Shown here: piece by piece, positions 34,344-38,835 of the stretch
Layout of the letters: each line of letters opens with the position of its first letter
Numbering within the stretch: the first letter of the stretch is position 1
Assembly (NCBI RefSeq): GCF_002209355.2
Contig: NZ_CP106855.1
Location: forward strand, 2,480,001-2,544,000
Direction of reading: 5' to 3'
DNA: 64,000 nucleotides
From: Bdellovibrio sp. SKB1291214
Lineage (GTDB): Bacteria; Bdellovibrionota; Bdellovibrionia; Bdellovibrionales; Bdellovibrionaceae
Notes under the pieces: model-generated
The model's input: the letters and a program-made list of their open reading frames with translations, nothing else
Databases searched by the model: none
What the model was told of the DNA's origin: nothing
Program-made: the position numbers and the translations under genes

Positions 34344-34529
34344 ATGTCTAAATTCCAATCTCAAAAACAGTCACAAGAAAAAGCAGAGAAATCAACGGTT
34401 CAGCCCGCAGGTAAACAGTCCCCAAAACAGCCGGAGCCCCGCCAAATCAATCAGGCGATCCGTGATAACGAGGCCCTAAACTATGAAGACCAAGATCATC
34501 AACAATACGGGCGGTCTTTAAAGCACTAG
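34344..34529 (+). CDS. Small Gln/Lys-rich hydrophilic protein
   Basis: A 61-residue protein beginning MSKFQSQKQSQEKAEKSTVQ, rich in Gln, Lys, Pro and Glu, with no hydrophobic stretch. AGGAGG stands about ten bases upstream. Like the genes at 31.9-32.9 kb and 61.0 kb it is a tiny disordered protein. Its end overlaps the convergent LysR gene by four bases. Confidence 0.55.
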   Translation: MSKFQSQKQSQEKAEKSTVQPAGKQSPKQPEPRQINQAIRDNEALNYEDQDHQQYGRSLKH

Positions 34530-35443
34530 CTAGTCCTTGAAATCTTGGCCAACTCACTCTTGATGACGTTTCTGAACCACAAGCGCAGGGGATCTTTGTG
34601 AGTGCGTGAATGCCACACCATGCGCATGTTTATGGCCGGCATGGGATAAGGCGAGGGTTGAACTTGGATCGGGAAGTATTCAGCATATTTATTTAAAAGC
34701 AGGGTGGGAGCCGTCAGCACGAGGTCGGACTGGGACAGGGTGAAAGCTAAACCCGTAAAACTGTAAGAGCCAAAAACAATCTTTCGTGGCTTTCTTTTTT
34801 CTCCGGCCTTCTTGGTTAAGTCGTCTTTGAAATCCCCTTGCAGAGTGATCAAGGCGTGCTCTAATTCAGAATACTGTGCCGGCTTTATTTCGCCTTGTAT
34901 CAGAGGGTGCTTTTTTCGGTAAGCGGTTGAAAAGGTGTCTTCTAAAACTTTGGTTTCATAAAAGCCCTCAGGCAGATTTTTATAAAATCCCGCGATCGCC
35001 ATATCAAAGACTCCGCTTTCTAATTCGGTTTTTGGAAAATCTCCCCGCGTGGGGCGGATGGAAATTTGTAAATGAGGCGCTTCTGTTTTTAAGCGTTTTA
35101 GAATGGCTGGCATAACTAAAATCTCAATATAGTCAGAGGTCGCAATCGTAATGCGATCGCTGATCTTTAATGGATCAAACTTTTCGTTTTCTAGGGAAAG
35201 ATTCAAGGCTTTATGTACCAGATCTTCAATCTGAGGGCGGAGACGTTTGGCTGTTTCGGTCAGAGTCATACCTTTAGAGGCCCGTACGAAGAGAGGGTCA
35301 TTGAAGTGCTCTCGGAGTTTTTTCAGTCCATGGCTAATCGCAGATTGGGTCACGCTTAACTCTTGCGCGGTTTTTGAAACATTCAAAGTGCGATACAGAC
35401 TTTCGACAACAACTAAAAGATTTAAATCCAAGGGCTTTTTCAT
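34526..35443 (-). CDS. LysR-type regulator
   Basis: A 305-residue LysR protein: HTH in SKTAQELSVTQSAISHGLKK (about 22-41), LREHFNDPLFVRASKGM and a periplasmic-binding-fold effector domain. The typical NodD/Nac-like wing (DPLFVR) resembles regulators with aromatic or toxin substrates. The ATG at 35443 has AGAGG six bases upstream. It is divergent from the DJ-1/OYE pair and likely controls it. Confidence 0.85.
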   Translation of the reverse strand: MKKPLDLNLLVVVESLYRTLNVSKTAQELSVTQSAISHGLKKLREHFNDPLFVRASKGMTLTETAKRLRPQIEDLVHKALNLSLENEKFDPLKISDRITIATSDYIEILVMPAILKRLKTEAPHLQISIRPTRGDFPKTELESGVFDMAIAGFYKNLPEGFYETKVLEDTFSTAYRKKHPLIQGEIKPAQYSELEHALITLQGDFKDDLTKKAGEKRKPRKIVFGSYSFTGLAFTLSQSDLVLTAPTLLLNKYAEYFPIQVQPSPYPMPAINMRMVWHSRTHKDPLRLWFRNVIKSELAKISRTS

Positions 35444-35454
35444 AGGAACCTCTG

Positions 35455-35480
35455 ATATGAGTATAATCGATAGCTTATAT
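35455..35480. promoter_or_regulatory. Candidate LysR binding site
   Basis: ATATGAG (35455-35461) and CTTATAT (35474-35480) form an imperfect interrupted dyad with a T-N11-A layout, with ATCGAT between. It lies just upstream of the LysR gene in the 109-base gap to the divergent DJ-1 gene. Confidence 0.4.
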
Positions 35481-35552
35481 GAAAACAATGAATTGGATTT
35501 ATGAGGATCTGAGTGGCAGCGTATTACCTATAAATAGATCACGGAGGCTTCA

Positions 35553-36320
35553 ATGCTTAAAACGATAAATGCTTTAATTATGGGATGGGTTCTAACTGCG
35601 AGTTTTGCTGAGGCAAAGACAAAGAGGTCAGATGTGGAAAATCGTGCGCTCATTGTTATTTCGAGTCATAGTCAATTAGGTGAGACAGGAAAGCCCACTG
35701 GCTGGTATCTTTCTGAAGTCACCCATGTTTATTATCCTCTGGCAGCCGCTGGCTATCAGGTTGATTTCGCGAGTCCCCAAGGCGGAGCCGCTCCCATGGA
35801 TCCAGGCAGTCGTGAAATTAAAGACGAGGACAATAAAAAATTTCTGGCAGATCCAGGTTTGATGAAGCAAGTTCAAGAAACTTTGCCTTTGTCGAAAGTG
35901 GACCCAAAAAAATATCGCCTGGTTCACTTTGCGGGCGGTCACGGTGCCATGTGGGATTTTCCTAATAATAAAGACATCAGTCGCGTTGCTGCTGCAATTT
36001 ATGAAAATGACGGAATTGTATCAGCAGTCTGTCATGGGCCTGCAGCTTTGGTCGACATCAAGCTTTCAAATGGTGAGTACTTAATCAAAGGCAAACGTGT
36101 GAACGGCTTCACCAACGCGGAGGAGTCAGAAGTAGGCTTAACGAAAGTCGTGCCATTCTTGTTGGCATCAAAGCTTCAAGAGCGTGGAGCTAATTACGAG
36201 GGCGGAAAAAACTGGGAAGACAAAGTCGTTGTCGACGGTCGTTTAGTGACTGGACAAAATCCACAGAGCGCTCACAGTGTGGGACGTAAAGTGGTGGAGC
36301 TTCTGCAGTCTAAAAAATAG
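35553..36320 (+). CDS. Exported DJ-1/PfpI family protein
   Basis: A 255-residue DJ-1/PfpI superfamily protein of the Hsp31-like branch, which includes glutathione-independent glyoxalases. Glu55 (YLSEVTHVYYP), the nucleophile elbow SAVCHGPAAL (Cys160, His161) and FAGGHGAMWDF are present. Unlike cytoplasmic Hsp31 it starts with a hydrophobic, signal-like segment ending FAEA, so it may act in the periplasm. It is 12 bases upstream of the broken OYE gene and divergent from a LysR gene. Confidence 0.85.
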   Translation: MLKTINALIMGWVLTASFAEAKTKRSDVENRALIVISSHSQLGETGKPTGWYLSEVTHVYYPLAAAGYQVDFASPQGGAAPMDPGSREIKDEDNKKFLADPGLMKQVQETLPLSKVDPKKYRLVHFAGGHGAMWDFPNNKDISRVAAAIYENDGIVSAVCHGPAALVDIKLSNGEYLIKGKRVNGFTNAEESEVGLTKVVPFLLASKLQERGANYEGGKNWEDKVVVDGRLVTGQNPQSAHSVGRKVVELLQSKK

Positions 36321-36332
36321 GAGTTCTGGAAA

Positions 36333-37431
36333 ATGTCAGATTTATTCAGTGAATTTAAGTTGAAGGACGTGACATTAAGGAACCGCATTGCGGTTCCTCC
36401 GATGTGTCAGTACATGGCCACGGAAGGTGTGGCGAATGATTGGCATTTAGCCCATTACACATCTTTGGCCCGTGGTGGGGCAGGGTTGGTTATCGTTGAA
36501 GCGACAGGGGTCGCACCCGAAGGTCGTATCACCCCTGCGTGTTTAGGGCTTTGGAACGAGACTCAAATGCAAGCCCTTAGAAAAATAGCTTCAGGTATCA
36601 AAGCGGGCGGAGCTGTTCCGGGTATCCAAATTGCCCATGCTGGCAGAAAAGCCAGTGCTCATCTTCCGTGGCAAGGTGATGATCACATTGCTGCAGACGA
36701 TGCTCGTGGCTGGCAAACCATTTCTCCATCCGCATTGGCGTATGGGGCAAATTTGCCTAAAGTGCCGAAAGAAATGACCCATGAGGATATCCTCAGAGTG
36801 CAAAATGATTTTGTGAGTGCAGCAAAGCGTGCCGTGGAGGCGGGTTTTGAATGGCTAGAACTGCACTTTGCGCATGGCTATTTGGCCCAAAGTTTTTTCT
36901 CTGTGCATTCGAATCATCGTACGGACGAATATGGTGGCAGTGCTGAAAACCGTGGAAAATTCCTCCGCGAAACGCTCGCGGCCGTTCGTAAAGTATGGCC
37001 AGCCCATCTGCCTTTGACGGCACGGTTCGGTGTGATTGAGTTTGATGGCAGGGACGAGGAAACATTGTCTGAATCCATTGCCTTGATAAAGCAGTTTCGT
37101 GAAATCGGTCTTGATATGGTGAATGTCAGTATGAACTTCTGCACGCCCACGGCAACAATTCCGTGGGCGTGCAGCGTTCCTGGCGCCGTTTGCAGAACGT
37201 GTTCGTCGCGAAACTGGATTGCCTGTTGCAACTGCGTGGGGTGTGGATACTCCCATGTTGGCTGATAAAACCGTGCGTGAAAATCAGTTAGATGTCGTGA
37301 TGATAGGTAAAGCGCATCTGGCAAATCCACATTGGGTTTATCAGGCAGCGCTAGAACTTAAGAAGGAAACGCCTTCTTGGGTTCTGCCAGCTCCTTATGC
37401 CCATTGGCTGGAGCGATATACAAATAAATAA
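36333..37431 (+). pseudogene. Old Yellow Enzyme family oxidoreductase, frameshifted
   Basis: An FMN-dependent ene-reductase of the YqjM/NamA type. The first frame (36333-37265) contains NRIAVPPMCQYMA, IQIAHAGRKAS, HFAHGYLAQSFFS and DEYGGSAENR, then loses homology after ATIPW. The second frame carries the expected continuation: AAFLAPFAERVRRETG, then LPVATAWGVDTP, IGKAHLANPHWVYQ and LPAPYAHWLERY. Adding one G to GGG at 37165-37167 restores a single frame of about 365 codons (IPWG-R-AAFLAP). The gene is thus either inactivated by a one-base deletion or mis-sequenced there. Confidence 0.85.
37139..37174. repeat. 14-bp perfect hairpin at frameshift
   Basis: CTGCACGCCCACGG (37139-37152) pairs perfectly with CCGTGGGCGTGCAG (37161-37174) over CAACAATT. 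The G missing from the OYE reading frame would sit in the right arm as a bulge, so the deletion made an imperfect hairpin perfect. Confidence 0.85.
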
Positions 37432-37432
37432 A

Positions 37433-37465
37433 AAAAAGCCCAGGAGTTTATGCCTGGGCTTTTTA
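37433..37465. terminator. Bidirectional terminator
   Basis: AAAAAGCCCAGG pairs with CCTGGGCTTTTT over AGTTTATG. It lies between the convergent OYE and GST genes and has A/T tracts on both sides. Confidence 0.85.
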
Positions 37466-37490
37466 AGTAACATCTCTTTGCAAGTCAAAA

Positions 37491-38099
37491 CTAAAGGCGG
37501 ATGCCTTCAGCAGCAACAGCTTCTTTAACCGTTGGACGCTCTGACATATTGCCCATGAACTTTTGCAGGTTTGTGTGGTTAGAGATATCTACACCCACCA
37601 AGCCCGTCCAACGAAGAACATTGTAAGCATAAGCATCTGCCACAGAAAACTCATTGCCCAAAATGTAGGGAGTTTGCGACAAGTGATTGTCCAAAACAGC
37701 TAAGCGCAATCCCACCTTAGCTTTGATTTGCTCTTTCGTTTCTTCGTTCATCACAGCGCCACCGAACAGTGATCCTAAACCTTTGTGGATTTCAGTCGCG
37801 ATAAAGTTTAGCCACTCCATTGCTTTATAACGTTCCATCGTTCCAAATTTTGGAAGAAGATTTTTTTCTGGAACTTGATCAGCGATCCACTGCAAGATCA
37901 CCGCACCCTCAGTCATCATATGACCGTTTGGAAGTTGAAGTGCGGGGATATAACCTTTTGGATTGATTTTTTTGTAGTCGCCGCCAGCGTATTCTTTCGC
38001 TTTAAGGTCTACTTTAACAAGTTCGAAATTTAAACCGGCTTCACGAAGTGCAATTTGCGAAGCAAGTGCGCACGCGCCTGGAGAGTAAAACAAATTCAT
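37491..38099 (-). CDS. gst: Glutathione S-transferase, beta class
   Basis: A 202-residue cytoplasmic GST. The N-terminal thioredoxin-like domain has YSPGACALASQ with Cys10, the beta-class catalytic residue, and the cis-Pro region GYIPALQLPNG followed by MMTEGAVIL; the helical C-terminal domain has the N-capping motif FSVADAYAY. It conjugates or reduces electrophiles with glutathione. The TetR gene 82 bases upstream on the same strand may regulate it. Confidence 0.92.
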   Translation of the reverse strand: MNLFYSPGACALASQIALREAGLNFELVKVDLKAKEYAGGDYKKINPKGYIPALQLPNGHMMTEGAVILQWIADQVPEKNLLPKFGTMERYKAMEWLNFIATEIHKGLGSLFGGAVMNEETKEQIKAKVGLRLAVLDNHLSQTPYILGNEFSVADAYAYNVLRWTGLVGVDISNHTNLQKFMGNMSERPTVKEAVAAEGIRL

Positions 38100-38181
38100 A
38101 GAAACTCCTTGATGAGGAGCCGTAATGTAACAATAAAAGGCACATTAGTAAAGATGGAAATCAGTCGCTCCGCAATAATTG

Positions 38182-38742
38182 CTAGGCCTCAGGGGATTTT
38201 AGAATCCCACGCATCATCATTTCGATGAAATCTTCGACGATGTTTTTGGGATCCGTGTACCCTTGCTTTGTTGCCAGACTCATCCCATTTAGCAAAGAGA
38301 TATAGATTCCCACTAAACGCGTCAGCTCAAAAGCCTTAATCTTGTCGGAAGATTGTGCCATCGTTTCGCGGAGGGGGGCAAAAATCGATGTAGAAACTAA
38401 CTGCATGACTGTTTGCTTTGCAAGAGGACTCAAGTGGGGCATGTCCATTTGAGAGATCAGGGACATATTCATCGGCGGCTGCAAAATGTACCAGTGTGCA
38501 AATGACTTTAAGAATGTTTCCAAATCAGCACAATTCTGTTTCATCGCTTGAACTTGCTCGCGGTACTGATCCAATCTGTTGCGTAAGACTTCGACATAGA
38601 TTTCCTCTTTGCCGCCTGGGAAGTGATAGTACAAAGATGCTGGTTTGATTTGCATGCTGTCAGCAATCTCTTGAAGAGATGTGCCTTTGTAGCCATTGTT
38701 GAAAAACATTTTTTCCGCACTATCAATAATTTGTGTTTTCAA
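38182..38742 (-). CDS. TetR family regulator
   Basis: A 186-residue repressor. The N-terminal HTH is clear (FFNNGYKGTSLQEIADSMQI followed by KPASLYYHFPGGKEEIY), with the ligand-binding helical domain after residue 50. The start is probably TTG at 38742, four bases after GAGG. An ACCTAA/TTAGGT dyad (38759-38785) just upstream may be its operator. It is oriented with gst and divergent from the lipocalin-carotenoid operon, so either could be its target. Confidence 0.85.
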   Translation of the reverse strand: MKTQIIDSAEKMFFNNGYKGTSLQEIADSMQIKPASLYYHFPGGKEEIYVEVLRNRLDQYREQVQAMKQNCADLETFLKSFAHWYILQPPMNMSLISQMDMPHLSPLAKQTVMQLVSTSIFAPLRETMAQSSDKIKAFELTRLVGIYISLLNGMSLATKQGYTDPKNIVEDFIEMMMRGILKSPEA

Positions 38743-38835
38743 GGGACCTCGCAAAGTTACCTAACGATTATCGAATAAATTAGGTGGATAGCAATTCTAA
38801 AGATTCATAGAGTATGTAAACTTTTAGGAGATTGA

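Follow-up and report, generated by a model that had tools for sequence, protein, structure and literature searches.

The window analysed here, a 64,000-nucleotide stretch of the Bdellovibrio sp. SKB1291214 chromosome (contig NZ_CP106855.1), contains an Old Yellow Enzyme gene whose reading frame is broken inside a long perfect hairpin. Which change broke the frame, and did the hairpin take part in making it? The features on which the answer depends are listed below in window coordinates.

35553-36320, + strand: DJ-1/PfpI family gene, directly upstream of the XenA gene with 12 bases between the two.
36333-37265, + strand: 5' open frame of the disrupted Old Yellow Enzyme gene (XenA type), 310 aa, stop codon at 37263-37265.
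37133-37179, + strand: extended imperfect palindrome, with GAAC/GTTC pairing (37133-37136 with 37176-37179) outside the perfect stem.
37139-37152, + strand: left arm of the hairpin, CTGCACGCCCACGG, in frame and encoding F-C-T-P-T-(A); putative donor.
37153-37160, + strand: loop, CAACAATT, 8 nt.
37161-37174, + strand: right arm, CCGTGGGCGTGCAG, the exact reverse complement of the left arm, holding the net +1; putative recipient.
37167-37173, + strand: GCGTGCA, seven bases where 18 of 19 orthologues have six (a Gly or Ala codon plus, mostly, a Pro codon).
37174-37431, + strand: displaced 3' part of the XenA gene in the +1 frame, AFLAPFAERV...APYAHWLERYTNK, stop codon at 37429-37431.

Residues 1-278 of the upstream frame are homologous to XenA, their nearest solved structures being those of Pseudomonas xenobiotic reductase A, and are followed by about 32 out-of-frame residues up to the stop. 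The remainder of the enzyme (AFLAPFAERVRRETGLPVATAWG...APYAHWLERYTNK) continues directly after residue 278 in a different frame; its 82 aligned residues are about 67-73% identical to the closest orthologues and contain zero internal stops. When the two frames were joined with the site masked, the match to XenA extended over residues 1-363 (E 2.6e-172). PF00724 was found on both halves of the gene, the second half alone scoring under the curated cut-off. Pseudomonas putida XenA (PDB 3L5L, 2H8X, 5CPL) is collinear with the gene over more than 360 residues spanning the break and has the same N-terminal LKDVTLRNRI and C-terminal APYAHWLERY; unlike in P. putida, the Bdellovibrio frame is broken past residue 278, which leaves the C-terminal quarter of the barrel out of frame. 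This homology identifies the gene product as an ene-reductase of the XenA type (class III Old Yellow Enzyme). Because of the break after residue 278, the locus is a pseudogene of the XenA family and not a working member, unless the record is wrong. The 310-aa product is without the last barrel quarter, including the region equivalent to XenA VGRAHLADPHW and APYAHWLERY, and this loss should presumably abolish FMN binding.

The sign of the change can be read from the frames themselves. Upstream of the break the first base of each codon has a position divisible by 3, and downstream of it the codons begin one position later, so that the downstream frame is +1 relative to the upstream one, which corresponds to one base extra (or two missing). 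The net change is a one-base insertion. The original prediction had instead assumed a one-base deletion, GGGG to GGG at 37165-37167; with GGGG put back, reading passes into the third, stop-ridden frame (GVQRSWRRLQNVF...) and the product is still broken. When single-base removals were tried around the arm, just the loss of C37168 brought back the conserved Ile-Pro-Trp-Gly. A codon-usage and codon-pair model trained on the same genome placed the frame switch, with no prior hint of the site, at 37169/37170, inside the right arm. The hairpin and the frame break thus coincide, and on this point the original prediction was right.

Nineteen XenA orthologues were compared with the gene at the DNA level, and 19/19 have a single reading frame. 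From the TGG codon to the codon pair equivalent to Ala-Phe, six bases are found in 18 of them, nine in one and seven here. The residues after Trp are Gly-Pro (13 orthologues), Ala-Pro (3), Gly-Thr (1), Ala-Glu (1) and Ala-Thr-Pro (1). The nine-base case, a Comamonadaceae plasmid (L161), carries an extra codon at the exact site (Trp-Ala-Thr-Pro-Ala), the sole in-frame length change there among the 19. Because glycine follows tryptophan, TGG GGN is present in 14/19 orthologues; the GGGG expected in relatives does therefore occur, but the extra G does not mend the frame here. The left arm keeps to the family pattern, its F-C-T-P-T-(A) resembling the F-S-T-P-T/N/D-A of the orthologues, with TPTA present in four of them.

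The hairpin itself was confirmed as predicted, with arms of 14 nt that are 100% complementary (14/14 pairs) around the 8-nt loop. Folded as single-stranded DNA, the region reached -23.3 kcal/mol (z = -4.8), and none of 200 shuffled versions was equally stable. It was also considered as a repeated element, and this was rejected: at 0 mismatches the arm sequence has these two copies alone genome-wide, and the whole hairpin is present once in the window. The rarity of such structures was assessed in a 464-kb sample consisting of the window and 20 evenly spread 20-kb stretches, with about 407 kb lying within ORFs. No other perfect hairpin of 14 bp or longer was found within an ORF in this sample, and in four Markov simulations of the same length the longest hairpin was 13 bp. 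Elsewhere in the sample, an 11-bp perfect hairpin (GTTCCTGGCGA/TCGCCAGGAAC) was seen in stretch L142 (10823-10853), a few bases before the end of a 524-codon ORF, and is probably a terminator overlapping the stop.

Taken with the orthologue comparison, these data point to recent inactivation of the XenA gene through template switching at a quasipalindrome in the course of DNA replication, as in the Ripley model, a reading to which we assign a probability of about 0.72. It is favoured because an ancestor with Trp-[Gly/Ala]-Pro would need a minimum of two edits to give the observed bases, against one copying event from the left arm; the observed right-arm bases all match those dictated by the left arm. 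As the left arm is in frame and family-like while the right arm departs, the left arm was probably the donor and the right arm the recipient. The ancestor would have been an imperfect inverted repeat with a loop-proximal stem of 7 bp (CCCACGG/CCGTGGG), and these inner 7 bp lie in sequence that still encodes the family residues Pro-Thr-Ala and Pro-Trp-Gly. During synthesis of the + sense strand, the nascent 3' end ...CCGTGGG would have folded back on the just-made left arm (CCCACGG), copied CGTGCAG off it, and rejoined the proper template at CAG|CG. The outcome would be a perfect 14-bp hairpin with one extra base in the reading frame and, given an ancestor with the proline usual in the family, the same event would also have substituted a base. 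The ancestral bases, reconstructed from protein constraint only, and the replication event with its strand are in this sense proposals.

Candidate ancestors that fit the family (e.g. ...TGG GGT CCA GCG...) fold with a bulge or mismatch and already contain the inner 7-bp stem; the fold energies are about -9 kcal/mol for the ancestor candidate, -14.5 kcal/mol with Ala for Pro and -20 kcal/mol for the perfect form. The mechanism named in the original prediction stands as the best explanation, whereas its mutation, sign, base and bulged arm do not; it had put an ancestral bulged G in the right arm, and a family-consistent ancestor would bulge on the left. Arm pairing in the orthologues is weak (best score 7 versus 15 here). 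Relatives do literally lack the hairpin, which had been proposed as a refutation; it is none, since the perfect hairpin would be the product of the event. Both the window (0.062) and its surroundings have a positive GC skew, but the profile along the chromosome is noisy. As a hint only, a positive skew would make the nascent + strand the leading one, as the E. coli bias predicts; in E. coli, the leading strand is the more mutable (PMC6357072). It should also be pointed out that the AAC codon of the outer GAAC pairing encodes Asn268, versus glycine in all aligned orthologues, and that the implied GG to AA double change strengthens the outer pairing. A second homogenisation event might conceivably lie behind it.

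The process is already known, and the XenA locus is a fresh natural example of it and not a new system. In E. coli, a stalled polymerase takes the nascent strand as its template, and the quasipalindrome becomes perfect (PMC7202029). The Ripley 1982 model, the E. coli thyA hotspot and the lacZ QP5/QP6 reporters (PMC7202029, PMC6357072) share with the XenA locus an imperfect inverted repeat turned perfect and a small frame-shifting indel templated by the opposite arm via the nascent strand. Unlike the reporters, the XenA allele, which has lost its frame and is apparently fixed, occurs naturally in a bacterial genome record; its ancestor is inferred, and no laboratory selection was involved. Homogenisation of inverted-repeat arms in S. 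cerevisiae (PMC8604942) and in RNA genes (PMC8794818) likewise turns one arm into the reverse complement of its partner and produces several differences from one event. The S. cerevisiae cases considered here (PMC8604942) are amino-acid-replacing multinucleotide substitutions, whereas at XenA the change is a net +1 and the gene is broken.

The strongest competitor to the template switch is a technical artefact, in which the living strain has an unbroken frame and the extra base came from a template switch during library PCR or from a basecalling or consensus error at the hairpin. The original caveat about polymerase or assembly error was fair, since template switching by PCR polymerases does occur at hairpins of like size, with 8- to 16-bp stems in lacZ (PMC5218489). 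The state of the gene also speaks for an error. Over 1,086 coding bases (1.09 kb) it shows no further stop or frameshift, and the counts of deviating invariant columns on the two sides of the break, 4/96 and 0/14, fall inside the spread seen among intact orthologues. With neutral decay, the probability of escaping a further lesion would be about 0.12 at 5% divergence and drop to 0.02 at 10%. The lesion is therefore recent, unless the record is in error. Against the artefact, reported PCR switching affects no more than 1.5% of reads, and mostly far fewer, so that a switched molecule should not win the consensus, and the reported PCR switches show as loop inversions (PMC5218489). The inserted base also lies outside any long homopolymer. 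Gel compression in hairpins tends toward loss of a base, not gain. As judged by a codon-model junction test, which misses frameshifts closed immediately by a chance stop, no other clear frameshift was found in the 464 kb sampled; the assembly is therefore clean. Among the 82 same-strand coding junctions in that sample, just the XenA switch has an upstream frame overrunning by about 95 nt, and at the others, which look like ordinary gene junctions, the upstream frame stops within about 50 nt and a start codon lies close by. On balance we regard an artefact as unlikely, though it deserves to be taken seriously.

An ordinary one-base insertion, independent of the hairpin and falling by chance in an old palindrome, is very improbable. 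Single insertions are common, and one edit would be enough if the ancestor already had Ala or Ser at the usual proline, the sole case in which it suffices. None of the 19 orthologues has either residue there. Moreover, when every possible single-base insertion in the sample is considered, just 1.5e-5 of them create a hairpin of at least 14 bp, so that chance fares poorly even with an Ala/Ser ancestor. We give slightly less credence still to a reversible or recurrent on/off switch, in which the hairpin makes both the templated insertion and its reversal frequent. If this were true, populations would hold both intact and broken XenA alleles, amounting to phase variation of a detoxification enzyme. 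The least probable reading is programmed frameshifting, with hairpin and offset functional and the ribosome making the full-length enzyme: both halves are conserved and stop-free and a strong stem lies at the shift point, but the needed shift is +1 (or -2) and falls within the right arm, where a position 5-9 nt before a stem would be expected, the sequence has neither a slippery heptamer nor an RF2-like stop context, the sole single-base skip restoring Pro-Trp-Gly falls inside the stem, and every orthologue is single-frame.

The origin of the gene was considered alongside its loss. In the other 23 genomes of the genus the best homologue is about 50% identical, while the closest copies, at 62-72% protein identity, come from Burkholderia, Pantoea and other proteobacteria, with one same-phylum genome at 68%. 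This difference suggests that the XenA gene was horizontally acquired. No close strain or species with an intact gene was found in 24 genus genomes, 369 phylum genomes and a scan of genome contigs; the nearest orthologues have 72% protein identity, and the relatives found at the DNA level are too distant. Two other Old Yellow Enzyme paralogues are present in the genome, so the loss of XenA is probably tolerated.

The surroundings of the gene (34526-38754) comprise a divergent upstream regulator gene (LysR-like by eye), the DJ-1/PfpI gene and the XenA gene, followed by a convergent glutathione S-transferase and a TetR regulator. The DJ-1/PfpI and XenA genes are likely in the same operon, and the whole region is likely an electrophile-stress cluster. 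On a Sphingobium plasmid (L166), a type 1 glutamine amidotransferase gene is likewise directly upstream of XenA.

Most of what is known about template-switch mutations comes from reporters and from comparisons among eukaryotes. The XenA locus would add a natural bacterial case in which the donor arm, the recipient arm, the consequence for the frame and the rarity of the structure can all be read. It also carries a caution, as the commonest guess for a frameshift, a homopolymer slip, gives the wrong frame at XenA. If the template switch is the right reading, such events can help to make newly acquired genes into pseudogenes.
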